Positions 6,115 through 60,556 of a stretch of 64,000 nt of DNA are shown here, one piece after another (position 1 is the stretch's first letter; each line of letters starts with the position of its first letter). This DNA is from Undaria pinnatifida (Eukaryota; Sar; Phaeophyceae; Laminariales; Alariaceae), in NCBI GenBank assembly GCA_012845835.1, contig JABAKD010000023.1, positions 5,872,137 to 5,936,136 on the forward strand, in the 5' to 3' direction. The position numbers were made by a program, and so were the translations under genes. Under the pieces are notes generated by a model, which ran no database searches, had not been told where the DNA came from, and worked only from the letters and a program-made list of their open reading frames with translations.

Positions 6115-6175
6115 ATGCGGCGTGGCTTCTCTCTCGCCACGCTTGCGTCCGCCTGCGTCTGCGGTTCTTCGTCTG
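6115..6175 (+). CDS. Candidate first exon encoding a signal peptide
   Basis: ATG at 6115 in context CCAACATGCGG opens a 61-nt frame starting MRRGFSLATLASACVC. It has a basic start, a hydrophobic core and small residues near the end, the usual layout of a secretory signal peptide. It stops in phase 1 at a strong donor, TCTG/GTGAGT, at 6176. The central gene's exon 1 (34607) starts with two bases that complete a codon, so the join is in phase and gives Ala. With this exon the model is 766 codons plus stop. The link is inference: the intron would be about 28 kb, filled by retroelements and a sequence gap. The exon could instead belong to another gene or be chance. Confidence 0.4.
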
Positions 6176-27071: not shown

Positions 27072-27365
27072 GGTCATGAGCGTTCGACCTTTAATATAAA
27101 CATCGATCGGCACCAAGCGAAATATCCTTTAGGTTTGTCGCATCTTACCGGGACGTTTGATGGAAACCTTCATTAAGCCGGCTACAGCATCAGCATCAGT
27201 GATCAGCATCAGTGATCAGCATCAGCGATCAACATCAGCATCACCATCACCATCACCATGGGAGAGTCCCCGAAAGCAGGTGACGACGTAGACAAGCTCG
27301 TTAGAGCTCTCAACGGCAAATTGAATGGGATTTAGTTCGACATATAGAAACGCACGGCTCAGTCC

Positions 27366-28463
27366 GTGATAAGCATGCGTCACGCCGGGATCTCTGACAT
27401 CTTGGAAGCGCGACCTTGCCCCGAGCCCAAACTAATCAGTCCTCGTACATCTTCTAGAAGAAGTAGGCCTTCACGAGCTGTAACTCACAGTCAGGCCGCC
27501 GACGAAACGGGCACTCAGTCCGGGGAAGCACCCTCGCTTGAAACAGCAGAGATTGTACAGCCCGACGCAGGGAGTACTCCCGTGGACACGGCGCATCTGC
27601 TACCACCATCTTCGGGATATTCTACACTCCCAGCCGAAACATCAGTTTTATCTGCCACGGATGACAACATCTCGAATTTGGAAGACATCAAGCACGGCCA
27701 CCGCAACAACCGTCTTTTCTTCAACTTTTTGTTCCTGAGTACATCGGGAGCTGCGGCCAGCTGTCTTCTACAATTCAGGCCGAAACGAGGTGAACTTGCG
27801 AATGGAAAGGCTGCTTGGGATGGTATGGTTAGAAAACATCAAAATTCCACCCGCCAACGTAGACATATACTCAACCAACAACTAACGCATATGGTCATGA
27901 CGGATGGGCAAGACCCAAACGTGTTTGTAAATCAAGTATGCTATTTACGGGATGAATTGGTGGACATGGGAGAGGTATTCAACGATGACAGCATATTGGA
28001 CATAGTGCTAGAAGGACCCACGGATAGATACCTGCAAGTAAATTATAGCGCCAAAGCAGACGATGACTTCACACTCGACCGAACTGTGATAACAATGCGA
28101 AATATGTACGCAAATAGAGCTATGCGAAACGGGCCTTCGCGAAACGCGAAGGGGCGTGAATCTGCTATGGCAGTCACATCAACACCCTCAGCAGTATTGA
28201 CCTGTTCACACTGCAAAACGCCAGGCCATGGATTCAAAATTGCTGTAAACGTAAGGGAACGATGTCGGGTAAGAAACCTCCCCCAACAACTCGAAATAAT
28301 TCGGGGTGAAGCCTGCATAATACGGATCGCCACGATAATAGCGACTGTCGGTCTCAAATGCGGGACGACAATATACCCCGTCGCCCTCGTCGCGGTCAAC
28401 AAAATAGCCGGCATAATAACAACCGCAGCGCTCACGCCAGCACCACCACAACTCCAACTTTAA
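27366..28463 (+). mobile_element. Element B, gag part
   Basis: Its start is closely similar to the gag start of element A (MISMRHAGISDILE in both). It includes a Gag-like block around VMTDGQDPNVFVNQ and a decayed zinc knuckle region CSHCKTPGHGF. It is a fossil relative of the A gag. Confidence 0.8.
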
Positions 28464-31464: not shown

Positions 31465-33160
31465 GGCAGGTTGCATGGGGTTCCCGTGCAAGAAGATCAA
31501 ACTACTGCGCCATTCAGTCTCACACGAGTTAGCACTACCGGGGGCTTCAATAAGAAACTCCAAGGAAATGGGGTGGGCAGGTTGCACGACGTTCTCGATG
31601 GGTTCGGGAACCAACAAGGGGAAGGCGATGCAGTCGTCATCGGGATCAATCCTTCTACCAATATTACAGTATTTAGATCCATCACTCCAAAACCTTAGAC
31701 GCCCATCCGCTAGGATCATGCCTATATCCTTATCGTCAGTTGCGAAATTCACTCCTCGTGTCTGCGCAGCCATTGAAGAAAAAAGGTTGAAAGCCAAGCT
31801 AGGTGCGTATGCCACTTTGTCTAGCCTTGCAGTGACACCTTCTGCCTTGTTTCGGGAAAACTACAGTCAGCGACCCGTAACCCTCAACATCTACCAGGGT
31901 GTCATTGCCAACATTGACCTTGTCCTCGGTAGGCTGCATCTCACGGAGTAAGTCAGCTGGTCTAGTAATGTGAAAGGTCGCACCACTGTCAGCTATATAT
32001 TTCTCTGTGCCGTCCGTACCCTGCTCGCGCTTTCCTACCGCATCTCTCTCACCAAGCATACCAACCGCCAAACATCCTATAATCTCACCAGAGCCGTTTT
32101 GCCACTTCTTCGCGGCAGGGATGACGTGCGCGTTGCAGTTGAATCACCGATGGCGTGGCTCCAAGCATCGATGACACTTGTTTCGCATGTCGTCGTACTT
32201 CTCGACCTTCGTACTGCTGCTGTTGTCATTCTTGGCTGCAACAACACCATCGGAAACACCCTCACCAGCTCGGTCACCCTTTCCATTACCTTCCTGCTTA
32301 CGATTTCGGCGGCCAGGTTTGTTCGCAATTAGGACTTGTCCTACATTTCGAGCTCGCACCTCTTGACTTGATGGTGTGTCTTCGCCTGACTATACCCTCT
32401 ATCTCGGCCCGGGTGATGTTATCTCTATACAATGTGGTACGCTGCTCGAACTCGTAGTCGTCAGTGAGAACATCTACGGTTTTCAGGTTCACATCCTCTG
32501 TAGGTAAGTGCACTCCCAGGAACCCCAAAACGCCGACAATTATGTCTACACGCGCGAAAAATCTCATCGGTTCTCCCTTTACCTCCATGACCAGATCGTT
32601 GAACTGTCGTTTCCACTTGGACTTCTCAGCCAGTGTTTTGGGCAAGAACCAGCCGTTGAGCATACGCCAAGCTACACTACGAGAATTGGTGTCGAACACC
32701 CTGCTCAACAACTCGCGGTCGGGAATATTTTCCGTCATGCAAATCCAAGCTAATCGCGACCTCTTCACGCCAATTTCAGTAATCCTTGGTCTAGCAAAAC
32801 ACGGGACGCCACAGATGGATCACCTACCATCATATCAGTCACAGTCGTAAAGGCTTGCATGCAACCGCTAGTGACTGCATAGCCTTCAAAACGTCGCTTC
32901 CACAGAGGGTATTCCACATCACTACCGTTGAATTTAGGAGCGGCCGATTTGATGCTACTGTCTCCCTAGGTCCAATGGATAGACTGCTACCCGCTGAAAT
33001 ATCTATACTTGATGAGGGCAGGTCTCCACCGGTGGGTGCCGCTTGCAGTCCGTCAGTGTTATCCGGGCCCTCCTCGATCGCCAACAGCCTTTCCTCGAAG
33101 ATCGTTGCCTGCGAAGCGCGGTGCTCCTTCGAATCTTCTATGCTCTCGTGGTCCCCCATC
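31465..33160 (-). mobile_element. Element C, gag and protease part
   Basis: The minus strand shows a copia Gag region (WKRQFNDLVMEVKGEPMRFF, about 32300-32770) and an aspartic protease start (YIADSGATFHITRPADLL, about 31980-32000). It is a fossil and broken. Confidence 0.85.
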
Positions 33161-34606: not shown

Positions 34607-35019
34607 CTGCCGTTACCGAGGTGACCGATGTAACCGTTTCCGCCAATGCATGGGACACCAGGACAGCCGGCTATGGCTGCGCTCCAGTCGGCTGCGTTCC
34701 AGCCAACGTGCTCAACGCTTCCATCGCAGACGAGTCGCGCTGGTCGTGCAGGTCATCAAGCTTAGGCGTTGACACTTGCGAGTTGACATTCGTTTTCAGT
34801 GAACCCACGGATATCTTCGAGGTAAGGATGGCCATGTGGAAGGGAAACGAGCGCAACCGCACGGTCAGCTTTTGGGTGGACGGTGTTCTGACGACCACGG
34901 TCGAGACGAGCGCGGATACGCTTGAATACGAGGCCTACCCTTTGTCCGCCAACCAAGCCAGCACCATTGTGCTGCAGGACGCCGGAGGAGACCCATTGGC
35001 TTGGCTCAGCATCACGGGG
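34607..35019 (+). CDS. Exon 1: discoidin (F5/8 type C)-like module
   Basis: Acceptor TTGTTACAG at 34606; two bases complete a codon begun upstream. About 137 residues: VSANAWDTRTAGYGC, ADESRWSC, CELTFVFSEPTDIFEVRMAM, RTVSFWVDG and LSITG have the strand pattern of a jelly-roll sugar-binding module. The four cysteines near the start are unusual for plain F5/8 C modules. Family assignment is by eye. Donor GTAAGA, phase 0. Confidence 0.75.
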
Positions 35020-38000
35020 GTAAGATGGTTATAAGGCTTCAGCCCCTAGGGTTTCAGGTGCACATCTGCACACGTAGCGCGATCAGTTCCGTCTGTAAAC
35101 AGCCTGAATGTTATGTCTTCATATACATGGGCATGTAATTTAGATGTGCCTCTGTCATCAAACACGCCAAGCCGTCACTAAACCATTAGGATCGCGGAAC
35201 CTTGTCACGCGAACAATCCAGCTGTTTCCTTGATTGCATACTTCGTAGCTCATTTATATTTTACGCCTTAGCTTGCATTGTCCGCGCATCGACCCAAACG
35301 GCCCCAGGTTCAGCTGATGACGGACTACGATGCAGACGTATCTTCGCCCGGTGTTGTCCCAACTAGCGTCGACTACATTGGGTGCTACAACGACCTTGTC
35401 GGCGACCGTATCCTTACCTCCGTGTCGACCGACGACGCGCTGACACCGGCTGTGAGTATGTCATCGAAACATATGTGTTGCATCTATTCACGACAAGTCG
35501 TCATTCTCCGCGTGCAAAGGACAAGAAACGATGTTATTCGACCTCTCCCTGTGAGAGGATGGCATGAGTCCGTCCACCTCGGAAACAAATTGTACACTCT
35601 CCGTCCTCCGTGGCAAGCTTACCAACCTCTTGTGTCAAACACATGTTGCGCAACCTCTATGGTCTCCACTTGAGATTTTTCAATGCACAATGCGTACACC
35701 ATCAAACCTTTGAAAGGAGTAACGTCAAGGTGCGCGAAATTTTCGTCTGGCGTAGCCTTGATTACGATAACGGGGAGATATCCCCTTCTTCTTGCGCGGT
35801 AATCTATGCAGTTTCAACCTAGATGGTGCATGCCAACATGCAGTGAAAGGCAGTGCGTACCACATATAACAAGATCTTGTCTGTACGACTGCACATCAGG
35901 TGCCGAGACCTGGACCCTATGTGGCGATGTCGTATCGCCTCTTGCGTTACACACAGATTCGGAAATATTCGGGTCATATTCCACACACAGTGTGACCGCA
36001 AGCATTCCCGGCGCTATAAAGTCTCTTGCGACAAAGGAGATTTATATACGCTACACGAGCGTGCGAGGCTTTTGGGTTGCACTACAGTCGTGCACTGGCC
36101 AGCGGTGGTGGATATGGTGAAACCGGTGGATTGTGTATATGAGTCCCAAGCGGGAGAATTCAGCGACGTCGAATCGAGTCCATGTTTCTGTGAGCTGTGG
36201 AGGTACATTGTTCGACTCGAGTCGTACAGAGCTAGGAAATGTATACCTGGTATGTTTTATGATGCTCAACTGTCTGATATTCCTTTTACGGCTACGAAGC
36301 GTTGACTACTTCTCAACTGTTTTGTCCTTTGGTTGCTGTTCAAGATTTGTGAGGCGGCCTGCGCGGAATCGAGCAAGTACTACTACGGCCTGCAGCAAGG
36401 CAATGAGTGAGTGTCACGGTTTCCATCCATGACCAGAATGGCTGGTTTGATTTTTCATTTGCAAAGTTCGACGAAGAAGGGCGCGCCTCTTGCCTCGTGG
36501 TTGCTCAGTCATCCACGGAGGCACACATTTGATACATTCAACCGTCTTGCTGACCAAGATCCCCGGTGTGCTCATGGCCCGTGTTGTCTTTAGTAACCTG
36601 AAAGGTTTTATTTATGCTCCTCTTTTTTTGTTCAGTCACACGTCCGTTTTGGTATAGCATAACCTGGTACACGCATGTCACCACCTTTGCCGCACAGATG
36701 CAACGATATGTTTTCAGGACGCCTGCTACGATAGAGTTGCACCACTTTCTCTCTGAGGATCTAAACTTTGGAAGCTTAAGACCTCTCCCTAATACTTTTA
36801 TTATGGAGGAAAATCGAAAATGCTAATGAATGAAAAACCCCATGGCCTAGCTTCACAACGATATTCATGCGATAATTCAGGATATTTCCGAAGACTTTGG
36901 GGGAAAGAGCCGCGTCATTCAGAAACCGTTTCACTCGAAGAGTGCTACCTCTATCGTAACACGCGTCTCAGGCCCCTTCACTCGACGAGGTCTCAACCAT
37001 ACGCAAAATTTCGCCTTGAGATCATAGAGAAAGCGGAAACTTTAGGTGCAATGTCACAACGAAGACTGCGTACGAGTAGTTCCGTGCAGTACGTCCGATG
37101 AGCATGAGTAGTTATTCGTTCTGTCTGGTCGGCCATACCGTGCTACCAGGTACGATTATCATACACGCTGTTGTCTCAGTACGTTGATTCCACTAGCGCA
37201 CCGTATTCTGTGCTCGCTGGTACAGGTGCTGGTGCGCCGGATGCGACATCACAGAGCTGGAGACCAACACGGACTACGACCGACATGGCGAGGGAAGCTG
37301 CTCCACTCCATGCTCGGGCGACTCCACCTCTACGTGCGGGGGCGACTTTGCTGTCAGTCTATACCAAACTACCACGTGCCGTGAGATTCGGGGTCTGCTG
37401 TTGTTTTTACGGAACCTGCGTCCGTCGGATTAGATGACGTAAGGGTATGCGCTAGAGCGGTGTATTGTAGTGAGATGTATGAACCGGCATTGGGACCTTC
37501 CCTTCGATGGTAGCGGTATGATAGAAAGTACCTTTTCTGCAGCTCCTCCCAAGCGACTGCTGTATATACCCCACCCAACAGTCTAACATTGTGGGCGTTA
37601 AACGTTGAGCTATTAATACGAGCGATTCAGTGCCATGGGCCAGATATTATTAAATTGCACCTTTCTTTGGTGTTGATGTACTGTAGTCTGTCCGGGCAAT
37701 TTTTTGGACGATTTCCCCCAAGCACTTGAAAATAAATCCCGAGTGACTGGCGTACCCCCTGGCCCGGGTAAAAGGACGGTCGGAAAGCTCTGTTCTAGGC
37801 GGAGGTTTTAATCCGAGCAGATTTTTTGTCCTCTTTGCGCGATCGGCGAGAAAATCTCGACTTCGTCCACGATTATAGCGATTTTCCATGGTTATGTTAG
37901 GTTGAGCGTGGAGTCCATTTTTTTTTACACTGGTTTAAAACAGATCTCGCCGAGGGGCTCACAGCAAACCAACCAGTGTCTGGATTACCGAGAAAGGAGC

Positions 38001-41000
38001 ATAAAAGATGCTCCATAAGAACAGCGTAAGTGTACCATTTTTTGTGGCGTATTGGGCATAGATCGTGAAAAACTCCTCGGATTCGGGTGGATTGGACCTC
38101 CGCACCCATTTTAGCCCGCGGAAGTTGTCGCTGGTGTGCACACACCACCTGCAACACGCCGGGGGGCTGTGTTGGTTGGCATTTAAAGGTGTGTCTATAT
38201 GTTGGTGGTGTTAATGATCTAGTGCATCTGCATGTGATTACGGGCCGGCGGTGCACGGTTCGGGGGTAATTTGTTTATACTCGAGGCAATTTTGTGCCGT
38301 TTCGGGGTGATCTCGGGGTGTGTTTCCGAAACGTGGCCAAATTCACGAAAAAGCAATACGTAGAAAAGATACCCGATTTCGATTCTCTCGACCCCGCCGT
38401 TCGTGCTGTTATTGTTTCACGTATCAGCTCTAGATATTCAGCGAGAACAAGGAGGGTTCACATGCCTTCATAATATTTGCCCGGGTGGACCATAGTATTG
38501 TAATGCATCCATAGATATCCGTTTAATCCTCAGATATCAGGAGTGCGGTGAGTGGGAAACGTCAAGGCCCGCGCCCACGAAATTTGCGGTATCACATATA
38601 CAGAGAACACGCTTGCTTTGGTTCCTACAGTACGTTGTTATTCGGTTTGTGTAACGGAATGATCGACGGCGAGGCGGGTGAATGCGCTCCTGTCGTTTAG
38701 ATTTTGACACCGAAGGATGTGTAGCCAAAATATCTGTTTAATGTGCATCACGCGTTAGTAGCGTATCCTGCGATCGTTCGTCGTAGTCTGGTACCAGCGT
38801 CAGATAATCCTGAACGGCTTGAGATTTGAATCAATACAGCAGTAGTATATCAAATCCTATATTCTTGAGAGATGCGCATGTTGGTTACGCGATTGTAGCA
38901 ACTCGGGCTCCGGGGCCGATATCCTCGCAGCACAACGGAGGACTGTACGGATGTGCTACCCTTAGGGGGTGCGTGTGTGACAACACGACTGCATGACGTT
39001 GCGACATTCTAACCGTTGCCCTTGTCACTTTCAACCTCTGCACCCTCGTTTTTTTCGCTTTTTGTTTCAATTACTCCGGTGTCAGGCGCCACGCCAGCAC
39101 CTACTCCTGCGATCATAGCCTCAGGTACGGAGACGCGTCATACGGTAGAGATGTCATTTTTTTTTGTCGGAAACGGGGTCTGACTTACGCGGCTCCTTAA
39201 CCAGAAATCGTAGAAAGCAGGTCGTTTTTTTTTTGTGGCACCAGTCTCGTCGTGTGCGTAGGCCCTGGTGACATTTTTATCTCGTAGCAGTTTTATTTTT
39301 GCTCCAAATGGGTTTTCGCGGGAGGTCTCTGAAGCTCCCCCAGATTGAACAAAATATTGAGGATACCTCAGAAAAAAGGTGGTGCATCTCTATCGTGGAA
39401 CGGGTATCGTGGCACGGGTCGACAATCCCTTGTTTTTGGTTGTGTGTTCCTTCCTGGCTGTGGAGAAAATCAGTAGTGAAATCCTCGTACTTTTACAAAA
39501 CGTGACTTAGATGTGACTGAAGAGTTTGAACCCCAGGCCTACGTTCTTGTGTAGCCATTTCGGAACACTTCGTTTTTCAAATCGACTTCGTTTTTCAAAT
39601 CGTTGGAATTCCAACATCGTCTATTACGGGGGGGGAACACAGCAGTAATAAGAACCAACTATTATGGCTCGTAGCAAAAACAGGGGAAGTGTATTTTTTT
39701 TTGTGTCTACCGTGGGTCCTCGAATATTTATGTACGGTTGACGCGCGTGCTACGATAGAGGTAAACGCTTTCAGTGCGAAATGGTTTCTGAATGACCGGG
39801 CTTACCTGCCCCAAAACCGTCGGAAAAAAATAAGTAATATGCATGGGCCATTTTTTTTCAGGACTATTGTTGTGGAAATAGGGCATGGGGCTTTTCATCC
39901 TGTAACAAGTTGTATTTTCATCAAAATCGGTCTTTAGGAGAGGTCTTCACCTCCCAAACTGACGGACCTCAGAAATATTGTGGTGAACCTCTAGACTACA
40001 GGTACAGTAGCACGCGTCGGTTTCCCACAATGGCAGCAACCCACGGAACCCATCGATGTAGATCTTGGGCGGGAACATCGTCACAACGTATCTTGTACGA
40101 GTGAAGTAAGTGTCACTTGAGGGTTGCGAAGACAAAACGACTGAGCTCCCAACATGAAATGTTTACCTGTGATACCCTACCGTCAAGCGTGTTCATGTTT
40201 CATCGGTACACCCTCGTGATGGTGATGCCCCGTACAACAGAGTGTCCAAGCGGGTCTACCCAGGCGGCGCTAGAAATTACCGCAACGTGGGACAACAGCT
40301 ATGGACTCGACCTTCACGTCATTGAACCTGGAGGAACGGAAGTGAACGACTACAACACGCTCGGCGTGAGTAATCGAACAATTTTTGAGTGGATCGACCG
40401 TTTTCGAGTGATTCCTTGAAGCCTTGGTAGAGGAAAAGATGATGAGCGCGTATGACGATGGAGAGTGTCCTGTATACTAGAGATGATATTGTCAGTAACC
40501 ATCATGTCCTTACTTGATAACACTTGAAGTCATCTGGTAAACATTGCGAGGTGCTAAATATAGTTCTCAACAGGCACTTTTTGGCCTGATAGTTGTCGTT
40601 TATCGATACAGCAGTATTTAACAAGCAGGTCTCTCAGCAGTAATATCTTGGCTATATATTATGCACAGCAGTTTACGTGGTGCATGCAGTACGTACTGGT
40701 ACATTGAGAGGGACAGTCTTCAATATCCTTCCGGAACAGGTAGCATGGTCTTTAGGGTCATAAGTCCACTACAAGTAGATGATGCCAAAAGTAACAATAT
40801 CGGCTACATTGGGCCATGATGACATACCCTGAGATTCGAGTTGTTCTACATAAACAAGACTGTAGTGTCTCGTGCCGGGGTCTTGATTTGTTGGGGTCAT
40901 AACTTGCCTTTTTGGCTTTTGTTCGTGTCTGATTCTGACGGTATTTTGTCTTGGAGCTACGAGAGGCGCATCACACCCACCGTCGTCATGTGGTCACTCC

Positions 41001-44000
41001 ACATCTCCGCGTCTCCACATCTGAGCTTTTCGAACAATCAACATTTATCTGCTGACCAAAGCAAGTCAGTAATCAGCATCGGATTAGGGTCGCCGAACAA
41101 CATCATCTTCTCTTCTGTACTTGAAGCTCTTCACCTACAGGCTCGCCTTACCGTGGCCTGCGTTTGCTTCTAAACTCATAGACTATAGGCTGGGTCTTCA
41201 TCGCGTCATCTGAAAGCGAACCAGCTAAGAGTTGATACACGTAAGAGCTGATACTAGCCACGTGCCACATCATATATTAAAGGTTTTAATGCGGGCTCCG
41301 ACCAAGAAGAACCAACCTACAGCTCGAATGTCGTTTCCAACAAAAACGCTGGTGCGTTTCCCCCCCTCCCGAAAATATACTAGCGTTTACCTTAAGTGTC
41401 TTCAAGAGCTTAATCATACGTTGTTCCGGCACTTTGACAGCGGTTTTATTCCTTGGCCACCTTGTACAGCCCTCGAGATACACAAGTATTGCGGACGTCT
41501 TCCCTGCTGTGTTCACACGATCATGTCAACATGTCCAACGCCGATTTACATGACGCGCTAGCCTGTTTATGACCTACAGACTCACACATATAGTGTTGTG
41601 CACTGTTGAATTTGGAGTGGCGGCGATGTTGGTATGAGCGCTGCGTTGGTTATTAGGCCAGATATTAGAAATCTCAGTGCATTCATCATCGTCCGCTCAA
41701 GTAATACGGATAATCCACACACATGGTCATGTTCGGCTCCCACGCCAACATCAGCCTAACCGATGGGCTCCCCTCGTTGATGCGGTCACGTTAACTTGTT
41801 GAGCGTTGTGGTTTTTAGTATGTTCAACGCAGTATGGGCCGAACAGTCGAAACTGTGTTTGTGGTAGCAACCAGCGCGTAGGTACACGATGTGCGTAACC
41901 ATTGCGGTGTAGGCCGAACGAAGGGAGCTGAACTGCGGGTGTAACATACGAGGTTTTTTATGGTCTTCTGGTTTCAATTAACTCCCCCCCTCCCGCCCCC
42001 TCCTTCACGGCCACCCACACCGTCGCCCAGACCTGGCACCACGCGTACAGTAAGCTCCTACTTCGTATATATTTGTTCGACCTAATCCTATTGAACCCTC
42101 CCCCCCCCTCCCCTTCCCGCCCACTTCCTATCCCCCGCCGCTCCGTCAATGATTCCACCCTTCTCTTACCGGTTATATGACTTACAGGATGTACATGATA
42201 ACGTGATGCATTCCTTCCTCCACGCCCTTACATTTTGTCCCTCTCAAAAACGGAATGTATAGTCTCCGCGTGTAGATTGATTTTCCCCCCTCCCCCTTAA
42301 AATACACACAATAGTTGGCCTCGGTTGGCACCGATGTTATATAACATATTACGAAATTTGGGGTTGGTGCTGGTTGGCAACGACGCTGTACATGTCAATC
42401 ACTGCGTGACCCGGAAAACGGGGGTACCGTTGCTTTGTTTTTCATTTTTTGGCGGTCACCATGATGGTTTTCGAGGTACCGTGCATCATATTGTGCGGGG
42501 CAGAGACACCAACTCCGCACAGGGGAGTAATGGCATTGCGTAGTGTGATATAGTCAGGCACCCACTAGGCAGTTACATAGTAATACCCATTGCTCTCTCT
42601 GGAGTGGCCACACCCGAAAATATAGGAACCCATGGGCGATGTCATACGTAGACTAGATAGTAGGCACAAGGTGCCGAAGTCCGTCTTGCGAGCGATTCTT
42701 GGAAGGATGCAGTCCACCCTTCTTGCGACTCGCCGAACACCTCACAGCGCTTCGCGCGTGGTGCAAGCAATGTCTGCCTGGTTGGCGAAAGCCCGACGTG
42801 CTCCGTCCCGGCACATTAGGGATGCGAGGGTCGACAGCCGTAAGACTACCGCCATGCACAAACGGAGTACCCTCGCCCCTAAAACCTCCGCCGTCCCATC
42901 ACCAATTATACGACCTACAGGATATACTTGATAAACTGGATCAGTATTTCCACAGCCGTCATTTTTGTTCCTCCTCAACAACGGGTTATATCTGGTTTCC
43001 GCGCAGATGGATTAACATCACTTTGTTGACCCTGCTAGGATCTACACTGTAGTTTAAAGGTAAGTCGACGACCAATATCCATAGTGAGGACACACATCTA
43101 GTTATATTCGCGATCGGAATATCACACACAGCCTGAAAATATGAGTTTGGACGATACCTTCGATCTCACAGCTTGAGTGTATTATATTTTTGCAACAAAT
43201 CTCATCTTCCATGTAAAGAACAGCGCATCAAATACGCATCATCGAGAGTATTTTGCTGCTGTACCGTCACCATAGTGGCTTTGGCAACACGTCGCACTCA
43301 CAGTTGTCGCAACAGAGACACACGTCGAAAACACGCAACGCACAGCTGAAACGCGTGATTCTATCACCAACCCTCTCCCAGGATGTTGGCCATTATTGTG
43401 ATGGGCGCGACGGATACGGGTTCGATAATCCCGGATCTGAAACCTACTTGAGCCTGAACGGTCTCAATGTCGGCGATGACGCCGTACTTGGCGACTACAT
43501 TGTCTGGGGAAAAGCGAGTGAGGGCACGATATGGTCCATAACCGCGCGGTCGGGGGGGGAGCTACTTTGGATCGCGGGCGGTGTGATCGGAGAACTTGAA
43601 TCAGAAACGGACAGGTACACCGCCACGGTGTCCTCCTATGCCGAGAGCGACTGCACCATTGACGCTTACGGTGAGTCGGGCCTGGTCAAGTTTAAACGTA
43701 GAGTAGCCCCTTTTATGCCCGTGTTGTTAGATGCTTGTAGCTACTCGCGCCAGTTCCAACCTTACGCAACTCCTGGACATGCGCAACCTTCCTTGACCTA
43801 CTGAGCGTTGCGATTTCACAATGCGAACCGGCGTAGAGGATTTTTTTCTGCGACGACGAAACAGCATTCGGTGCACGTTTGAGTGACGTTGGAACCCCCT
43901 CACGTGAGGGGTCTTAACTCTGTTAGAAAAACGATTATACTCCTCTCCCTTTCGTCTCTCGGATCATACAGGCTAGCTTTGCCCAATAGGTATTCATTAG

Positions 44001-47000
44001 AATCCGACAAAATAATGAACTACAACGAATGGTGTCTGTGTTTCTGTCTCAATCGCCGGGTCGGTGACAGGGTAGTTACCCTTACGCATATTTGACGTGA
44101 TACCCAATCCGTTTGATTTTGGCGCATGCATGTGTGTGCGCGCGCAGACAAGTGTCCACGAGACTCATACAGCGGGGATGGTCTACCACCCTGTACAGCG
44201 TGCGCGGAAGGGTTGAGCTCGAGAAGTGGTTCAACCTACTGCACCGTTGAAGGTACCTTTGGATTGCCTTGCTTCTCGTACGTTCGGGTGGATAATTCTT
44301 TTCGCCCCTGCGTGTTGTGCTTGTGCCTGGTTATGCAGTATTTAAGACGGATAATCCGTGTTTTTCGGTAAACATGGTCTCCATACTATAATATTTACTT
44401 GGGCAGGCACACGTTTGGCGGTAAAGGTATGAGCTTGTATACGGTAAATTTCGGAAGTCCTTAAGCTGCCCAAGTTCGTTCTGTATATGTGTTCTCAGGT
44501 ATGCCTATTGTTCACTCTGCCCGTAGCGATTGTAGAGTTCGCTCCAATTAGAGCAATAAATGTGTGCACGACCGTCTCTTCCTTAAATATATATGTATAT
44601 ATATATATATGTGGCTACGCCTGCATGCGGTGCGGGTTTTTCACGAGTCGAGCAGATCAGGTCCCTGTTTGTGACATACCTGGTATGCCGTTCAAAGTCG
44701 ACTGGTGCTCCCGACCATCATGATACCGTATTTAGGCTATTGGTCGAAGTTATTGGTGGGATCCGTTTGATTTTAACTGTCGACCTCGTGCACTGGGTCG
44801 GAACTGTACGTCACAGATCCTGCACAGCTTATATATATAGGCTATATACATCGTGGCACCTAAAATAGTTGCTTCATGCATACAGAATTTCACAGGTGTC
44901 TGGCTTTGTCCCCCTGAATGCGGGTGGTACAGTTTCCGTGTACAGAACAAGGCTGACCGTCTTAGTCCTGTTGACCTTGGCATTAGCAGGGGAGTCACTA
45001 AACTGTACGCTTCACGAGGGTATGCACCCCCTGTCGCATGCTCGACCGAAGTATCACACGCGCAGCTTGGAAAACTGAACTTCGATCATAATCCTTTTTT
45101 GGTCGATCTGGCAACTGAAGTGTATTTTTTCATTTTTTCAACATATGGTGAGGACGGACACAAATGCGGGGTTTTTGCCGATCACAGTGTTTCCGTGGCG
45201 GTACAGCAGTTCCAGATAAAAAAATTGAAAACGGCTGCATGTACGACAAGATGGAAGTGCTCGGAATTTCCGGCTTGTGGTCCGAAGCAAAATATATTAA
45301 TCTGACCCTTCCTTGTACGATTGTTCTTGATAGTTTTGATGTGCCGACTGCATATGTGGGTAAGGTTATGGTGTGTTATGTTCGGAAACATTCCGACTTC
45401 GTACCGCCAGGGACGTTGCTGGGTCTAGCGCATGTATGTTCCATGCCTGCGGTCGACAGGGTAAGCAATCATCGATTTCAAACGAGGGCAGACGAGCAGT
45501 CTTGTTTCAAGCTGATGAATGCGCGCGTCTGCCGTTTTTCCGATCGAAACTCTTTTCTTCCAGCACTGGTGTACCTCCAATTACCGGAAGCAGTCAGCGA
45601 CGCCATCATCGCCGACGTGAGTTGGGTGTCAACGGGGTTGTAGTTTGACGTCCGTCATATGCCTTGTCAAGTTGAAATTTTTGGATCCATGTGGTTTTTC
45701 TCGCTATTTTGTTTTTCTTTGGTGTGGTCAAGGTCGGGAAGAACGGCATACACCTTCACCCAAGCGTTTGGGAACGAATACCTTGAAATTAATGGAACCT
45801 GATTCCGCAGCCCAAAAGGCCCAAGGGCGTTACTTTTGAGCCCATATAATATATAAATATGCGGACCACATTTTCGTTTCGGGGTCCTGTTGTAGCAACC
45901 CTTCCCCCTTTCCCCCCCCCCCCCCGCCGTCACCCGCTTCCCCACCAACAATCAAAACCGCCTAGGTGGTAAAACACTACCCGACAGGTGACATAATCTC
46001 TTTAGTTTCAGAGCAATCCATGCACTAGCTCCAACTCATTTATTTGGTACTTTTAGTTCCAATCAACCCCCGCCCTCTCCCCGCCGCCCCCATTGTCGCC
46101 TGAGATCTGGCATCATAGGTGTGCAGGAAAATCCTACCTGGTATTCAATTCCACGGCCTAAATATTCGAGAACCCCCCCCCCCCCCCCCCCCCCGCGGCC
46201 TCTCGAAAACGAAGCCACCCTCCCATCAACGTCATACGACTGATTGCATACGCAATGAAATGGTGCGTTCCACAGCGGTCAGACTGTATCCCGTCAAAAG
46301 CATGTTTATAGTTTTCGTGCACAGGTTGGCATACATGAACCTGTTGACCCTGTTACAAGGTAACCTTTAGGTGAGTCACCGACCTATAGCCTCAATAGGG
46401 ACACAACCCTCAGTAACACGCGTGCGATCGGAGTATCACACACAGCTTCAGCTCCGAAAATGTGGTTTTCGACAAAAATCTTCGACCTAACAGGTGCAGC
46501 GCACTTTTATCGACTATTATATCTGTTTCGTAATACAAGGGTCAAAGCAAGAAAGAATAAGGCCCAAATCATCCTGACGGAATAGTTTACTCGCGTACGT
46601 ACATATTCGTCTTTCGCTCTGGCAAGTGACACGGTTTTCCTTATAACCCCGGCGACCTGTATTGAACCCGGGCGACCTGTATTGAACCCCGGCGACCTGT
46701 ATTGAACCCGCGCGACCTGTATTAAACCCGGGCGACCTGTATTGATGGTGGTGGTTACTCAGGGAGACGCAAATCGTGTGAGTACGAAAAGAGTCAGCTG
46801 GTGAAAGCAATGGAAAGCGGCAAACAACGGAGAAGAGTAGCACAATTAGTTCCCGATGCAGGCAGACCACAGCAACAGCAGCGAAACAGCGGCGGAAAAG
46901 TATAGATGCTACGAGAACAGCGCTCCCATCGTTTGGCCAATAGAGTGGGAACGTAGTCGTGTAGCTGACGAGTGCTACGACAGAGGTAGCACTTTTCTTC

Positions 47001-50000
47001 GGAAAATGTTTTCTGAATGACGGAACTCCTTAACCATAATCGTCGGAAACAGGTATTTTTTTTGTTGCATGATTCCCGTTCTATACCTAGGCCATGGGAA
47101 TTTTACCCGGTAGCAGTTTTGGTTTTCTCCAACTCGGTGTTTGGGTTGAGACAGATCTTAAGCTCCCAAATTGAGGAACCTCGGAAAAAAAAAAAAAGTG
47201 GTGCACAGATTGATTCTACGATACCCCCCCCCCCAAAAAAAAAAACAGCGATTTGCGTCAACGAAGGTTTCATGGCTCCTCGACAGGAGCAAGGATGCCT
47301 TAAAAGCAGATATCTTGATACAATATGTTGCTCGCAAAGGACTATCGAATGATGACATCGGGGTGGTAAGAGGCACCGTAGTTCAGGAGATACCGCCCGG
47401 AGTTGGTTTCACACCGGCGATTTCGTTAACGAAGTTGGGGTGGGCTACCGTAGAACGACGCCACACCTCTATCCTAGCACGAGTCGGCTATCATATCATA
47501 GGGCTACGTGCAGCAGCAAAACGTGGTTCACCATCCGGAAAATGAGAAGAAAAGCATTCAACGAGTGGTGCCGCGGAATGCCATAAATATAAACCAACAG
47601 GGGTAGAAAATTAACGTTAAAAATCATGGTTTGATTCTTTTACGGCCAGGCATTGACAACAAATATACCGTACTCATACAATAGTAGGTACCAGGTAGAC
47701 TACGAATTAATAGAGTACCGGCTGAAAAGTGCCACTGCCTTATGCAATGGTGGCGAAATCGCTAGGTGCGACTGCGCCTCAATGATAGTAACAGTATAGG
47801 TATGACACTATAGGTATGGCAATCGTTTTCCAGTAGCGCCGGTGTCCCACTCAGTGCCGGCATATTTGGCTGCCGCATACCGGCATTATTCTAGTGACCC
47901 CAATGTAAACAGTTTACAGCGAGCATGTACAAAACATGGCCATACACAGCCCACATCAGATACCAACAAAGGGAGTTCCAGACACATTCATACACAGTAG
48001 TAGAGCAGCACCAGGCAGAGATGAGCAGACCGCGACCTTTCTCCGACGTCTTGTTTCCTTTTCTTCCTGTGATGCTGTCTAGCGTGGTGTCAAGGTCGAC
48101 GTTTTGCTCGAAGGTATGTATACGGTTCCATGTATTGCTTAAAAACTACCCGCCATGTATAGGGTCGGTTCAACAGTGCCACCGCTCTCTACAAAGCTGA
48201 GAAGTAGCTTAGTACGTCTGGAACAACCTATAGAAGGTATGCATGGCCACTATGTTCTCAATAGTGCCGGTTCTTTGTGGTGGCACATACCCGTGGCACA
48301 TATCGACGCCGTTGGGAGTGCCTAATCTCTGTAGATTAGAGTATTGTGTACGAGTATGCTTGGTATCCTGGTAAAGCGACTAAAGCCAAAACACACGTGT
48401 GTGCACCGCGCACCACAGTCAAGCCGGTGTAAGATACAGACACATTCGTACAGCAGCACAGTAGCAGTAGCAACAACAGCAGCAGCCAGCCAGCGTAGCG
48501 CAGGATATTTCCCCATCCTGTTTCGTGGCTCCAGCTGAGTGTTATCGGAGGTGTCGCGTGCGGTCAGCGGCCATAAACTAATTGCTGACAATGTTTCAAC
48601 GGTTTTTGCCATGTGCTGTCAATAGTACGGGATAGTCGCACGAAAATTCCAAAAGAAAACTTGACGTGCTTCGGGTTATTCGTCCGTTGCGTACGTCGCC
48701 TGCTGTGAGCCAGAAGGAAGCCTGCTTGTATTATCAACGGTCGGGCTAACAAGTCTGGGATAAGACCTACTTGAGCTAACAGTCCTAGCGGCCAAAACTC
48801 CGCACATCTGCATTGTTTCTATTTGTACCTGATACATAGCCTTAATCGACCAGTCTTGTAAGTTCCTTGAATTGCTATCGACGCGTGCATTGTGTTTCAG
48901 GGTTTTGGCGGGCGGGAGAGCGCCCCCTTGACGGTGCAGACTCCGATATAGACCACAGGAAGGAGCATTCCAACCCTAAACATATTTTTTAGGTGTGCCG
49001 CAAATGGCAACCAGCGTCTTACTGCTCTTGTTTCGATGATGATGCGTTCGATTTTTTAAGGCTGTCGGGGGATTCGTGGGTCCCGGGATGGCCGAGCTTA
49101 ACGACGGCGAGGAGTTCTACAAGTTCATCGTCACGAAGGGGGCTGAATCGGCGACGATATCCGTGTCTGGATTCTTCGAGAAGTACGATGATACGGCGCT
49201 TCCAGAATCAACCGGGCTGTACCTCTACCTCTACAACGAAGACTCGCCGACCGATTTTGAACGTGGCCAAGGTGTGATAGACGTGGGGTCGGGGAATTTC
49301 TCGGCAACCATCGACGATATCCCCGTCGGCTACAGCAGGGGCGTCTTCAGCTTTGTCGCTCTTGACGCTGATGATGGCGGGAACCTGACTGCGGGCAACT
49401 CTGTGTATGGCATAGATATCGCCAACGAGGGCTGCAGTGACGAGCTTAGGATCAAGCTAGAGTGGAACTCAAACGACTATATCGACCTTTGGGTCACCGA
49501 TCCCAAGGGGAACAGGGTCTCGTACTCCGATCGGGCCACGGTGCGTGTGTTCACGTATCCAATTTGTGTTGTATATTGTGCCTGTGCTACCGCATGGGAG
49601 GGGAAACCGTTTATCAAAGACTATTTTGGTGGCAGTTCTCGTTAACCAAGCAACCGCCGACCATTTGCGGAATACGCATGCGTCTTACGCCAGTAAAAGG
49701 TATATGCATGTGCTGCATCGGGATACGCTTTCGTTTCTTCTTTATAGAGTGCCAACCTATATGTGAGAGTCTTAGGAAAGATTAGGTGGATCCTTACCGT
49801 ACCCTGCGAAGTTTTTGTCTGGCGCAGATGTTGAGGTATTCTCGACGTGGTAGGGATTTTTCGCTGGTTTTGGGTCTGTGTACCATAGAACGCCAGCAAA
49901 TTTCTCTTAGCAATTACGCCATGAAATCACTGTTGCGCTAAAGAGCACGGGGTGATGTCTTGTGTTCTCCGCCCCAAGGTACCCCGCCACCCTCTTGTCG

Positions 50001-50540
50001 CTCCCATTCCGTCGGTATGTGCGGAGTGTCGCCAAATCTCCTTCAATATTTCGTATTCCCCGCCTTACCGCCTATCTCCCTGTGTGCTGCAAACGACAAC
50101 TCCGGGAATGCCTCTAACGATTTCAGGATATTGGCTACATCAACGACCGAAACGGTGGCGGCTGGACCGCTGGCAACCCGGACGAGGGCTACGACAGCTC
50201 CTACGAGGAGTACGTGCTGTTTAGCGGACTGTCCGGAGACGCCATGATCGGCGACTACAGCGTCTTCGCGAGGCGCGACTACGCTCCTTCTGCAAACGAC
50301 TGGACGCTAACCGTGACCATGCACGGAGAGGTGGTGTCGATCGAGACGGGGTCTTTCCCTGGCAGCAGCACGACCGGGTCCTACGACGACGACGACTTCT
50401 CGTCGTCTGGCTCGTCTTCGTCCAGACGCCAGCTGTTTACGGATGACGACTCCACCTATGACCCCTACTATTACACCTGGTATCCTCAAAGTGACACGTT
50501 TGTCGTCACCCTTGGTTCCTACGACCCCGTTGGATGTTAA
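34607..50540 (+). CDS. Secreted or surface mosaic protein with WSC and YfaP/DUF2135-like modules (ten-exon model)
   Basis: Exons: 34607-35019, 35308-35451, 36345-36406, 37226-37380, 40241-40365, 43382-43670, 44148-44252, 45564-45616, 49061-49540, 50127-50540. All introns are GT-AG, all phases match, and the frame ends at TAA (50538-50540). Module order: discoidin-like, WSC, YfaP/DUF2135-like, GCC2/GCC3 Cys-rich, pre-peptidase-C-like, YfaP/DUF2135-like. WSC modules bind carbohydrate in fungal wall sensors and many algal wall proteins. YfaP, GCC2/GCC3 and PPC modules are extracellular types. No catalytic site or membrane segment was seen, so a secreted, wall-binding or adhesive role is inferred. 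The start is not within these exons. The candidate signal-peptide exon at 6115-6175 fits in phase and would give 766 residues. Intron lengths of 288-3444 bp suit a brown alga. Confidence 0.8.
35308..35451 (+). CDS. Exon 2: start of the WSC module
   Basis: Encodes VQLMTDYDADVSS then the WSC opening YIGCYNDLVGDRILTS and DDALTPA. Two in-frame acceptors are possible. CCCCAG at 35307 lets ITG-VQLM continue the discoidin-like strand. CGCCTTAG at 35271 has the better pyrimidine tract and would add 12 residues. Donor GTGAGT, phase 0. Confidence 0.8.
36345..36406 (+). CDS. Exon 3: WSC middle
   Basis: Only 62 nt: ICEAACAESSKYYYGLQQGN plus two bases of Glu. It matches the WSC core C..C.....YFGLQ.G..C. 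Acceptor GCTGTTCAAG, donor GTGAGT. Confidence 0.85.
37226..37380 (+). CDS. Exon 4: WSC end
   Basis: Completes the WSC module: CWCAGCDI, then GSCSTPCSGDSTSTCGGDFA and VSLYQTTTC. The conserved C.C, PC.GD, TCGG and LY features are all present, giving an apparently complete cysteine set across exons 2-4. Donor GTGAGA, phase 1. Confidence 0.88.
39132..39420. mobile_element. MITE-like element T, copy 1 (intron 4)
   Basis: About 290 bp. The left end GACGCGTCATACGGTAGAGA mirrors the right end TCTCTATCGTGG...GGCACGGGTC. It carries the internal ACTCCTTAACC-like and CTCAGAAAAAAGGTGGTGCA blocks shared with the other copies. Confidence 0.6.
39740..40018. mobile_element. MITE-like element T, copy 2 (intron 4)
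   Basis: Ends GACGCGCGTGCTACGATAGA and TACAGTAGCACGCGTC are inverted repeats. GGTT occurs on both outer sides, a possible target duplication. It ends 222 bp before exon 5. Confidence 0.7.
40241..40365 (+). CDS. Exon 5: first half of YfaP/DUF2135-like module 1
   Basis: Encodes CPSGSTQAALEITATWDNSY then GLDLHVIEPGGTEVNDYNTLG. The L-x-V/A-T-W-x(5)-DLxV-x-x-P-x-G pattern is the DUF2135/YfaP hallmark and recurs in exon 9. Acceptor CGTACAACAG, donor GTGAGT, phase 0. Confidence 0.82.
40366..41974. other. Intron 5, left part, no features recognised
   Basis: Sequence of ordinary composition; ORFs of about 110 codons (40841-41173, 41232-41561) lack motifs and are not accepted as exons. An R1 copy fills most of the rest of this intron. 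Confidence 0.5.
41975..43185 (-). repeat. R1 repeat array in intron 5
   Basis: Inverted R1: CCCAGACCTGGCACCACGCG, C tracts, TATAGTCTCCGCGTG, GTTGACCCTG, ATCGGAATATCACACACAG and CTTCGATCTCACAGCTTGAG. It ends 196 bp before exon 6. The segment 42300-42900 is more diverged or foreign. Confidence 0.65.
43382..43670 (+). CDS. Exon 6: second half of YfaP/DUF2135-like module 1
   Basis: Starts DVGHYCDGRDGYGFDNPGSE, then YLSLNGLNVGDDAVLGDYIV and WSITARSGGELLW, ending DCTIDAY plus one base. It corresponds piece by piece to exon 10. Acceptor CCCTCTCCCAG, donor GTGAGT, phase 1. Confidence 0.85.
44148..44252 (+). CDS. Exon 7: GCC2/GCC3 (ephrin-receptor-like) Cys-rich module
   Basis: After completing Asp it reads KCPRDSYSGDGLPPCTACAE then GLSSRSGSTYCTVE. 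This fits the C-P-x-G-x-Y-S-x-x-G-x-x-x-C-x-x-C pattern of GCC2/GCC3 modules. Acceptor GCGCGCAG, donor GTACCT, phase 1. Confidence 0.8.
44870..45130 (-). repeat. Diverged R1 copy in intron 7
   Basis: AGGTGTCTGGCTTTGTCCCC, TACAGTTTCCGTGTACAGA, CTGTTGACCTTGGC, GAAGTATCACACGCGCAGCT and AACTTCGATC follow the inverted R1 order with many changes. Confidence 0.6.
45564..45616 (+). CDS. Exon 8: 53-nt microexon
   Basis: Acceptor TCTTTTCTTCCAG, donor GTGAGT. It enters in phase 1 from exon 7 and leaves in phase 0 into exon 9, which is exactly what those exons need. It reads ALVYLQLPEAVSDAIIAD, which leads smoothly into the pre-peptidase-C-like module. Without it exons 7 and 9 are out of phase. It was chosen on splice signals, phase and sense, so it is less certain than the others. 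Confidence 0.6.
45890..46505 (-). repeat. R1 repeat in intron 8
   Basis: CAATCCATGCACTAGCTCCA, C tracts, TATAGTTTTCGTGCACAGG, CTGTTGACCCTGTTA and ATCGGAGTATCACACACAG in inverted R1 order. Confidence 0.65.
46651..46746. repeat. 20-bp minisatellite, five units (intron 8)
   Basis: The unit GGCGACCTGTATTGAACCCG is repeated nearly exactly. Variation is confined to one or two bases per unit. Confidence 0.92.
46967..47485. mobile_element. MITE-like element T, copy 3, enlarged (intron 8)
   Basis: Left end GACGAGTGCTACGACAGAGG and right end CCTCTATCCTAGCACGAGTC are near-perfect inverted repeats of 20 bp. At 519 bp it is about twice as long as its siblings. Internal blocks TTTCTGAATGACGG and GAACCTCGGAAAAA are shared. 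Confidence 0.75.
47486..49060. other. Intron 8, right part, no features recognised
   Basis: Two CA-rich stretches near 47925-48010 and 48420-48490 share ACAGACACATTC(A/G)TAC and CAGCAGCA words. No exon is supported. Confidence 0.45.
49061..49540 (+). CDS. Exon 9: pre-peptidase-C-like module and first half of YfaP/DUF2135-like module 2
   Basis: Acceptor CGATTTTTTAAG. It reads AVGGFVGPGMAELNDGEEFY and KFIVTKGAESATISVSGFF, then TGLYLYLYNEDSP, the layout of a PPC beta-sandwich. VFSFVALDADDGGN follows, then GCSDELRIKLEWNSNDYIDL and WVTDPKGNRVSY, the YfaP hallmark. Donor GTGCGT, phase 0. The upstream stop at 49040-49042 fixes the acceptor. Exon 9 has a decayed relative at 344-782. Confidence 0.85.
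50127..50540 (+). CDS. Exon 10: second half of YfaP/DUF2135-like module 2 and C-terminus
   Basis: Acceptor ACGATTTCAG. It reads DIGYINDRNGGGWTAGNPDE, YVLFSGLSGDAMIGDYSVFA and NDWTLTVTMHGEVVSIETG. An Asp/Ser-rich loop (YDDDDFSSSGSSSSRRQLF) and the end FVVTLGSYDPVGC follow, then TAA. No transmembrane segment or GPI-type tail is seen. Exon 6 and the right-edge pseudo-exon are relatives. Confidence 0.88.
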   Translation, partial: DIGYINDRNGGGWTAGNPDEGYDSSYEEYVLFSGLSGDAMIGDYSVFARRDYAPSANDWTLTVTMHGEVVSIETGSFPGSSTTGSYDDDDFSSSGSSSSRRQLFTDDDSTYDPYYYTWYPQSDTFVVTLGSYDPVGC

Positions 50541-57479: not shown

Positions 57480-58290
57480 ACACCGGCGACGTGCAGGACT
57501 GCAGTGCGTGCCCTCTCAGTAAGAGCTCTCAACAGCCGCACTCAAAGCACGCCGTTTACGGCGTTTCACGCGCCTTTCAGATCGTATTCATCGATACCCT
57601 TGGTCCCATCACGCCTACCGCGCTGGGCGGCTTCAAATACGCCGCCAAGTTTGTCGACCAACAAACCAAGTGGAAGGAGGGCGACCTCATGAAGGATAAG
57701 ACTTCCTCGACTGACGCCCTCGAGTTGTTCAACAAGGGGACCGTCATCCCCCGCAGCGAGCGCATCCACGTGCTTTGTGCGAACTGAGTTTACGAGCGCC
57801 GTCTACCGACAGTACTGCCTGGACATCGGCATCCAGCTACAATTTGCATCGCCGGACACCCCCCATCAAATCGGAGCGAATGAGCGTGCAGGCAGGACAA
57901 TCATGAATATCGTGCGTTGCATGCTCGCTAATTCTACGCTGCCGAGCCTTCTTTGGGGAGAACCGATGCACACGGCGGTCTACCTGAGCAACCGGACGCC
58001 GTACAAGGCGCTCTACGGCAAGGACGCGCACCTTGGACACCTTCGGGTGGTCGGGGCACGGGCGTTTGTGCATGAAGAGACGCACACCAAGAAGTTGGAA
58101 AGCCGTGCGTGGGAAGGACGGTTGGTGGGCTACAGCCTGGACAGCAAATCCTACCGTCTCTACAACGCTCAGACGAGACGAGTGCGGGAGAGTCGCAACG
58201 TTATCTACATTGAAACGACTCCCGCGCCGCCTTCGTTGGACGAGCGTGGTTTTGACGACGGGGAGTCACTTACGCCGACCAGAACGACAT
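57480..58290 (+). mobile_element. Element D, integrase part
   Basis: KHAVYGVSRAFQIVFIDTLG, PHQIGANERAGRTIMNIVRC and LWGEPMHTAVYLSNRTP are classical copia integrase stretches. RLVGYSLDSKSYRLYNAQTR is the usual C-terminal GYS..SK.YR pattern. Fossil. Confidence 0.9.
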
Positions 58291-58899
58291 GATCCGAGAT
58301 GTGCGGAACTACACCACCAACCACTCGGTCGATGCGCTTTCTCCCAATTATGCCGTCGGGGACACGTCTGTTCTCGAGCTTCTCGAGGACATCTCCACCG
58401 TCAACAAACCGTGACCTTCGGCTCAGGTTCGCTGACCCTTCTCCTGCCGCCGAGGATGCGCCTGCGGACGACAGCCTTGCCTCGCCTAGAGAAATCAGCC
58501 CTTCTGAGTCAGGTAACGGTGCACCTTCACCTGCCGCATCACCTTCCGGTCCTGCTCCAGCCGGTTCATCACCTGGTCCTGCGTCGCCGCCTGGTACGTC
58601 GGGTACTGGTTCTGCTCCAGTCGGTGCTGCATCGCGGGGTCGTTCCGCGTGTGGGCGTGGTTCATCTCGCGGTGGGCGTGACACCCGCGGTGGCGCTTCG
58701 CGTGGTGCATCTGCGCGGGGAGGGATCGCGACGCGTGGTAGACGTGGTTCGGTGAGTGGGCGTGGTTCTCGTGGTGGTCGTGGCTTCATGTCAGCCCCTC
58801 GTGACACCAGGATTACCCGGGCGATATCGCGCGTGCCCAACCAGAAGACCCTCAGCGAGCTTCGTCGGCTTTCGCACGCGTTCCCCGCGATGGGGGAGT

Positions 58900-60556
58900 T
58901 TCCTTGACGTCGCGCACAGGGACGCCACATTGGTATTCACAGAATACGCATACGCCGTAGGGGCAGTGCCACCAGACGTTCCTCGCACCATCCAGGAAGC
59001 ACGGGCCTCATGGACGCAGCGGAGTGGAACTCAGCTGCCGAACGCGAGATGAAAAGCCTCAACGACCGCAAGGTCTACACATTCGTCCCGCGCTCAGCCG
59101 TCCCTCCGGGAATGAAGCGCATCAAGTGCAAGTGAGTGTTCAAACGCAAGGCCGACGGCTCCTTCAAGGGACGTGTCGTGGCCCAGGGCTGGAACCAAGT
59201 ACCCGGACTCGACTGCGGCAGCACCTACGCTCCGGTGTGCAGGATCCAGAGCGTGCGATTGGTGGCGTGCATCACCGTGGAGTTCAACCTCATCTTCGAC
59301 CAGATGGATGTTTCTACCGCTTTCTTCTGCGCGGACATCCAAGAACAAGTGTTCGTTGAACAACCACCCGGTTTCGAGGCCAAGGACAAGGATGGAGGTG
59401 ACATGGTAATGCAGCTGAAGATAGCCTCTACGGATATGCTCAAAACCCAGGCAACTGGTTAAACACCATCGATCCCGTGCTTGTCGAGATTGGCTTCGTC
59501 GCACTCAAGTCAGACCCGTGCGTGTATTTGTACGATCACAACGGCGCCAAGATCCATCTGACTCTCTACGTCGATGACCTTCTCCTGGCCGGCAACGACT
59601 CTAACGCCATTTCGATGGTGAAAGGGAAGTTGCAAAATCGCTTCAAAATGACCGACATGGGGGAAGCATCTCTCGTACTTGATATGGAAATCAAGAGGGA
59701 TCGCGAGGCAGGTACCTTGACTATTTCCCAAGAGGCATACTGCAAATCGATCCTTGAACGGCTCGGGATGTCGGACTGCAAGCCGACTAGTACACCTGGG
59801 TACGGCTCCATAATCTCGAACAACCAGCCCGAGGACACACGTCTCAACGAGTAGGAGACGCGCAAGTACCAAGGGATCGTCGGATCGCTCATGTACATTG
59901 CGCAAGTGCTGATGCATGACATCATGTACGCGACAGGCCAACTGACTCGCCCGATGGCGGAACCCAGCAAGGTGCACATGGTGGCGGCAAAGCATATTCT
60001 TCGCTATCTGGCAGGAACGACCAAGTTCAGCGCCACCTACAAGAAAGTTAGTTTTAGGCTCGCGACCGTCTCGGACTCGAACTGGGCAAACAACCCTGAC
60101 AACGGGAAGTCGACCTCAAGCTACGTGACGATGCTGGCAAACGCTCCGATGAGCTTCAGGTCGGGGCTGCAAGGTCTGACTGCGATGTCCACCATACAAG
60201 CGGAGCTGGTCGCATCCGCCCTGGCGATGAAGGAAGCAGTGTTTTTCTCAAACATGCTGACCGAGCTTGGACTCGGGAAGGAGTTTACACAAATGCCTGT
60301 GTACTGCGACAACACGGCTACCCTACATGCATTGGGGAACCGGTCCTTCAGCTCGAGGACCAAGCACATCGCATTGCCCTTCTTCTTTATGCGAGAACCA
60401 GTAACGGAGGGGAGGATCTCCATCCATTACGTTCCGACGGAGGACAGCCTCGCCGACATCGTTACAAAGCACTTCAACAAGCACAGGTTCAAGCACCTTA
60501 TTGACCTCATCAACAAGTTCGACGTCAACAAGTTCACCACCGTAGAATTCAATTGA
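58900..60556 (+). mobile_element. Element D, reverse transcriptase and RNase H part
   Basis: Copia RT stretches are VVAQGWNQVPGLDCGSTYAP, FDQMDVSTAFFCADIQEQVF and LTLYVDDLLLAGND (YVDD). RNase H follows with VSDSNWANNPDNGKSTSSY, AELVASALAMKEAVF and HYVPTEDSLADIVTKHF. Fossil. Confidence 0.92.

Follow-up and report, generated by a model that had tools for sequence, protein, structure and literature searches.

Brown algae built complex multicellularity on a matrix of alginate and fucans, and to our knowledge few proteins of this matrix are known. Among the described proteins with a WSC domain, sensors of the Wsc1 type have a membrane span after their ectodomain. WSC proteins have also been reported in brown-algal walls (available text of PMC8307928), and one of them was raised in kelp sorus tissue (excerpt of PMC11333212). 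The other described systems that come closest to the gene presented here are the CBM32 module of the alginate lyase AlyQ, the bacterial YfaP/DUF2135 proteins and the C-terminal part of subtilisin-like proteases. Here, we analysed a stretch of 64,000 nt from the kelp Undaria pinnatifida (contig JABAKD010000023.1, C30:5872137-5936136), called the window in the following, with positions counted from its first letter. It contains a gene on the plus strand that spans 6115-50540 and consists of 12 exons with 779 codons plus stop, encoding a protein of 779 amino acids. Judging from its sequence, this protein probably belongs to a family of secreted, soluble extracellular-matrix proteins that bind wall polysaccharide.

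The gene and its copies

The gene is real, but it is larger than first read. An earlier note on this DNA had described ten exons (exons 1-10 in the following) that join in phase into a 746-codon translation. In a search of the alga's own genome (511,146,479 bases on 68 contigs), the last two of these exons gave 23 matches, and both occurred together at eight loci, the window included. All ten exons recur in order at six of the 11 regions compared, namely the window, P5845, P6225 and P6301 on the same contig, P35a on contig C35 and P25 on contig C25. Locus P57 holds exons 2-10 (exon 1 was not found in the 9.2 kb upstream that were examined), and P30c, P35b, P38 and the right flank of the window hold parts of the gene only. 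The window copy and its three near copies on the same contig are clustered within 0.5 Mb (C30:5.83-6.33 Mb), two per strand. In a comparison that set exon 0 and the first intron (both described below) aside, exons 1-10 together with the additional exon 8b are 95.1-95.5% identical to each of the three near copies, with one or two indels, each 3 nt long, whereas the introns are 86.2-86.4% identical, with 172-175 indels, of which 139-148 are not multiples of 3. This divergence pattern and the ordered recurrence of the ten exons indicate a gene beyond chance, and coding sequence.

All ten originally listed exons are in place and all introns are GT-AG, but they do not form one frame. Exons 1-8 chain in phase and exons 9 and 10 chain with each other, whereas exon 8 ends in phase 1 and exon 9 starts in phase 0, which rules out the ten-exon chain as the complete gene. 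The frame is re-established by a 53-nt exon that we named exon 8b (45564-45616, phase 1 to 0), both in the window and in the three near copies, which keep its borders and phase. The region is weakly matched by the diverged paralogues P35b (E 0.002) and P35a (E 0.037), between their exons 8 and 9; exon 8b was not found in P25 and was only faint in P57. When the reading frames of the window were compared with the diverged paralogues, matches were listed outside ~11.4-42.9 kb, an interval in which the phases require no extra exon.

Exon 1 has no start codon and needs one base from upstream. We scanned six copies for exons that encode a signal peptide and end at a suitable donor, and MRRGFSLAALASACVCGSSS is one of four candidates obtained in P5845. 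Its window counterpart at 6115-6175 is identical at 59 of 61 positions, with flanks of 80-88% identity. This exon 0, ~28 kb upstream of exon 1, supplies the start codon and the signal peptide MRRGFSLATLASACVCGSSS and is followed by the donor GTGAGT. It recurs at two of the three near copies (P5845 and P6301, in the latter at a distance of ~13 kb before exon 1); searches of ~16 kb upstream of the P6225 copy and of the 8.5 kb (P35a) and 2.2 kb (P25) of upstream sequence examined did not recover it. With exons 0 and 8b added, the model of 779 codons plus stop replaces the 746-codon translation. An alternative first exon, a hydrophobic stretch with an ATG directly ahead of exon 1 that came up in the scan for P6301 and P6225 and is also present in the DNA of other copies, was rejected, as its donor leaves a 35-nt intron and it sits in the pre-acceptor stretch.

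We determined the ratio of nonsynonymous to synonymous substitution (dN/dS) with exons 0 and 10, intron-split codons and the pair P5845-P6225 set aside. Against the diverged copy P35a it was 0.17 for the exon 1 module, 0.13 for the WSC domain and 0.24 for exon 9. Among the near copies it was higher: the window copy gave 0.48, 0.61 and 0.57 against the three others, and two of the three remaining pairs gave 0.58 and 1.18. By these ratios, purifying selection acts on the family, and constraint among the recent copies is looser or shifting. The higher ratios among near copies would also suit a window gene that is turning into a pseudogene while other copies work. The same could be said of the first intron (6176-34606), which is 28.4 kb long here and ~13-14 kb in two near copies, and which holds Copia-like open reading frames on both strands: an RVT_2 frame at 24550-25089 (minus strand) and gag frames at 16400-17404 (minus), 27348-28460 (plus) and 32298-32816 (minus, just under the Pfam cut-off). 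Decayed fragments of the exon 9 module nearby would fit as well; they lie at window positions 346-760 (minus strand), at C30:5938163-5938390 just right of the window and at C30:6285335-6285556. Set against such decay, all 12 exons are open, the introns are GT-AG with phases kept, and the exon indels relative to the three near copies are of 3 nt only, so that we consider a decaying or silent copy quite improbable.

Two further observations concern divergence between the copies. Exon 1 (34607-35019) hardly varies between the four C30 copies (synonymous divergence, dS, 0.00-0.02 in the five pairs counted), while dS relative to the window copy is 0.07-0.12 for the WSC domain, YfaP-like module 1 and exon 9, and introns diverge by ~14%; the near-identity of exon 1 points to gene conversion or to additional constraint. 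In exons 8 and 8b, amino-acid change exceeds silent change when the window copy is compared with the three near copies (dN/dS 1.4-3.7, from only 10-11 changes per pair). The window, with a GC content of about one half, contains another Copia-type element at 57693-60553 on the plus strand (SH3_retrovirus 1.9e-21, RVT_2 3.9e-24), and 500 N fall within the first intron at ~7.5-8.1 kb.

Secretion features, WSC domain and CBM32-like module

The analysis supports the earlier description as a mosaic secreted protein with a WSC domain and two YfaP-like modules. The protein has 25 Cys and is strongly acidic, with 120 acidic versus 35 basic residues, and no membrane span is predicted after the signal peptide (by hydropathy only, the best 19-residue mean past residue 30 being 1.18). 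Taken together, the signal-peptide-like start, the Cys content, the acidity and the lack of a later membrane stretch fit a soluble matrix protein.

The WSC domain (approximately residues 181-266) starts in exon 2 (35308-35451), continues in exon 3 (36345-36406) and ends in exon 4 (37226-37380), all three backed by Pfam and by the paralogues. It matches PF01822 over model positions 1-82 of 82 (E 1.6e-12, 47.9 bits versus a cut-off of 27.8), as the earlier note had proposed, and is the only domain named there that is significant in Pfam, which was searched with a limit of E 10 and with filters that drop most matches above ~0.1. Among PDB sequences, phmmer returned Kremen-1 (1.2e-6) and chain 7pz2 (9.5e-4), which we take to be a WSC structure. 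A genome-wide search yielded at least 65 matches to WSC exons with E up to 0.001, some of them with internal stops, and the WSC domain of the window, split over three exons, is not among them; WSC is, by these matches, a large family in this genome. Exon 5 (39086-39124), a Pro/Thr/Ala linker placed by the phase chain and the paralogues, follows the domain.

The WSC domain might also suggest a wall-integrity sensor that, like fungal Wsc1, reports the state of the wall to the cell, and transmembrane WSC proteins have been named mechanosensor candidates in Ectocarpus (available part of PMC6347293). Such a sensor would be expected to span the membrane, which the hydropathy maximum of 1.18 does not predict for this protein, and we judge it very improbable indeed.

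Exon 1 encodes residues 22-158, a module called discoidin-like in the earlier note, and recurs in the paralogues. A three-copy profile of it compared with PDB sequences placed the AlyQ CBM32 first of three listed (E 0.0056 and 0.056), and the alignment scored 18.8 bits versus 7.9 for the best of 2000 shuffles. According to the available text of PMC5651945, Arg248 and Trp303 of AlyQ are connected with uronate binding, and its CBM32 bound cleaved, not intact, alginate. Residue mapping puts both residues on Arg103 and Trp153 of the exon 1 module, which are invariant in the three aligned copies. From the AlyQ calcium site, Asn206 and Thr307 are identical and Thr214 is replaced by Ser. By this weak match, the module resembles the CBM32 type seen in alginate lyases. 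A stray Pfam match in the exon 1 set, CIDR1_gamma (0.24), was below the cut-off.

YfaP-like modules and the region between them

Two YfaP-like modules are located at residues 293-430 (module 1) and 607-779 (module 2). Module 1 is encoded by exons 6 (40241-40365, first part) and 7 (43382-43670, second part), and module 2 begins in exon 9 (49061-49540) and continues in exon 10 (50127-50540), which also contains a Ser/Asp-rich stretch and the stop codon TAA; all four exons are backed by the paralogues and the YfaP profile, exons 6 and 7 also by mutual BLASTP. The modules are related to each other (BLASTP E 6e-9; hhalign E 6.4e-13), and both are interrupted at the same place, immediately ahead of a D(V/I)G motif, by an intron of phase 0. 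Because the place and phase of the intron are common to both, the two modules appear from the sequence to be the product of one internal duplication of an intron-bearing ancestor. The shared intron and the mutual similarity speak against two independent YfaP acquisitions, and the idea that each module had been acquired separately is dropped. The ancestral YfaP-like module, or the CBM32-like one, may or may not have come from bacteria by lateral transfer; the bacterial matches are distant.

For the comparison with bacterial YfaP, we built a profile from 18 full-length domains, picked for spread from 80 loci, and kept four extra sequences that had been found with an algal query out of the scores quoted here. 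Module 2 scored 13.0-19.1 bits in all eight copies, versus 9.6 for the best of 750 shuffles and 5.7 for the next, and module 1 scored 2.5-18.1 bits, with three of seven copies above the best shuffle. In hhalign against the same 18 domains, module 2 reached P 93% (E 2.8e-7) and module 1 P 85% (E 6e-6), both E-values being those of single comparisons, and seven control pairs with an unrelated module stayed below P 1%. The match lies mostly in the first part of the domain.

None of the seven proteins holding a YfaP-like module matched Pfam DUF2135 (PF09906) at the E limit of 10, whereas E. coli YfaP, as a positive control, matched with 2.3e-18. However, the DUF2135 model has 48 positions, and its match to E. 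coli YfaP is confined to residues 199-244, behind the W..DLDLHVVTPDG stretch that the algal modules share with this protein. The miss is not decisive, since the short model sits behind the shared stretch. Of the two Pfam matches on which the earlier proposal had been staked in advance, WSC was found and DUF2135 was not; as for the two YfaP/DUF2135-like modules, module 2 matches the bacterial YfaP profile clearly and module 1 weakly, and neither matches the Pfam family.

Other searches gave distant matches at best. A profile of seven algal modules compared with PDB listed two subtilisin-like proteases first (3afg and 9ues, E 0.015 and 0.022, over 47 profile positions), and in PHROGs both modules weakly matched phrog_1735 at nearly the same profile positions (E 0.022 and 0.17). 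Stray Pfam matches to DUF5006 (0.021) and an LtfC beta-sandwich (0.037) were below every cut-off, and a two-sequence alignment gave no useful match in PDB. In tblastn against plasmids and phages the best matches reached only E 0.3 to 1; of four proteins taken from it, one was over the DUF2135 cut-off, one below it (0.062), one had a weak PPC match (0.13) and one had nothing. Viral contigs searched with the module alignment and the full protein yielded no useful match.

Between the two modules lie the short Cys-rich stretch of exon 8 (44148-44252), exon 8b and the first part of exon 9. Exon 8, backed by the paralogues, has a Cys/Gly spacing that we take to resemble GCC2/GCC3, the label given to it earlier, but none of the three proteins holding the whole stretch matched GCC2_GCC3 (PF07699) or another family in Pfam. 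The module in the first part of exon 9 had been labelled PPC-like, and this identity is withdrawn, as it has no support from profile hidden Markov models: PPC (PF04151) was matched in Pfam by none of the four proteins that hold the module. Among PDB sequences, eight were listed for it, the best (E 0.011) being designed repeat proteins, with no stretch passing alone, and hhalign related it neither to the YfaP-like nor to the CBM32-like modules (P below 1%).

That this middle module is without family assignment in Pfam, PDB and hhalign leaves room for a polysaccharide-modifying or defence protein, in which the middle or a YfaP-like module would have an activity or inhibitor role and the WSC and CBM32 modules would only aim it. 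Brown-algal WSC domains fused to CAP (PR-1) domains (accessible part of PMC12879055) and the lyase domain adjoining the AlyQ CBM32 (PMC5651945, in the text available) would be precedents. The Pfam and NCBIfam searches, the latter of which added no family, returned no catalytic family for any module, and we regard such a protein as unlikely.

Proposed role and comparison with known systems

We favor a secreted, soluble matrix protein that probably binds wall polysaccharide, and we infer its binding, location and expression from sequence. The signal peptide would direct export, after which the CBM32-like and WSC modules may bind wall polysaccharide, toward which two modules of carbohydrate-binding kind point. 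Alginate or its ends would be the best single guess for the CBM32-like module, because it resembles that of AlyQ. The YfaP-like and middle modules may serve as spacers or form sandwiches that bind protein or calcium, and the protein could tie matrix components together or mark sites in the wall. The extra near copies on one chromosome might raise the dose or diversify binding.

Several findings weigh against this reading. The AlyQ match is weak, and Pfam F5_F8_type_C was not listed for the window copy or the three members of the exon 1 alignment even at the E limit of 10. The calcium-binding Asp209 of AlyQ corresponds to Asn57 in the window copy, alone among the three copies aligned with AlyQ. 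Of the other copies, P5845 and P6225 also have Asn here and P35a and P25 have Asp. The main-chain calcium ligand Asn211 is replaced by Ser. Module 1 of the window scores 9.5 bits with the YfaP profile, just below the best shuffle, which only the three module-1 copies mentioned above exceed, and Asp residues of this module have been lost in P5845 and P6301. Single-sequence folds of the exon 1 and exon 9 modules were poor, with mean predicted local distance difference test (pLDDT) values of 55.8 and 48.1, and too uncertain to use. Lastly, dN/dS of 0.48-1.18 among near copies (five of six pairs) suggests that some copies may be loosening.

Kelps respond to oligo-alginate damage signals. The uronate-binding Arg and Trp are kept from a bacterial module that binds cleaved, not intact, alginate, and for this reason it is conceivable, if a long shot, that the family reads the alga's own broken alginate, as extracellular sensors or carriers of such signals that the WSC domain would hold in the wall.

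In the reading as a matrix-binding protein, this family, with its several copies and its combination of WSC with a CBM32-like module of alginate-lyase type, offers concrete, testable candidates. A module duplicated together with its intron argues, moreover, against counting each bacterial-looking module as a separate lateral gain. The finding is modest but useful and adds no new principle.

Compared with WSC proteins such as Kremen-1, yeast Wsc1 and those of brown algae (PF01822), the window protein shares a full WSC domain over the curated cut-off; unlike Wsc1, it has no predicted membrane span, and its WSC domain is joined to a CBM32-like and two YfaP-like modules. With the AlyQ CBM32 (7d29, 5xnr), the best PDB match of the N-terminal module, it shares both ligand residues, Arg and Trp, and some of the calcium site; it differs in that no lyase domain was found beside the module, in the change of the calcium Asp to Asn, in the lack of recognition by Pfam and in the weak E-value. 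The W(D/N)...DLxLxVxxPxG stretch and the part following it align with bacterial YfaP/DUF2135 proteins (E. coli YfaP and the end of an Aureibacter VIT protein), unlike which the window protein has no DUF2135 match, two intron-cut copies and no VIT or vWA match in Pfam. The C-terminal part of subtilisin-like proteases (3afg, 9ues), presumably a beta-jelly-roll, is the best PDB match of the YfaP-like profile, though a weak one, and the window protein contains no protease. The order CBM32-like, WSC, YfaP-like, Cys-rich, unassigned, YfaP-like was not met in the portions of the WSC and YfaP literature examined and may exist elsewhere. Measured against these known systems, the protein combines parts of known kinds in a new way.

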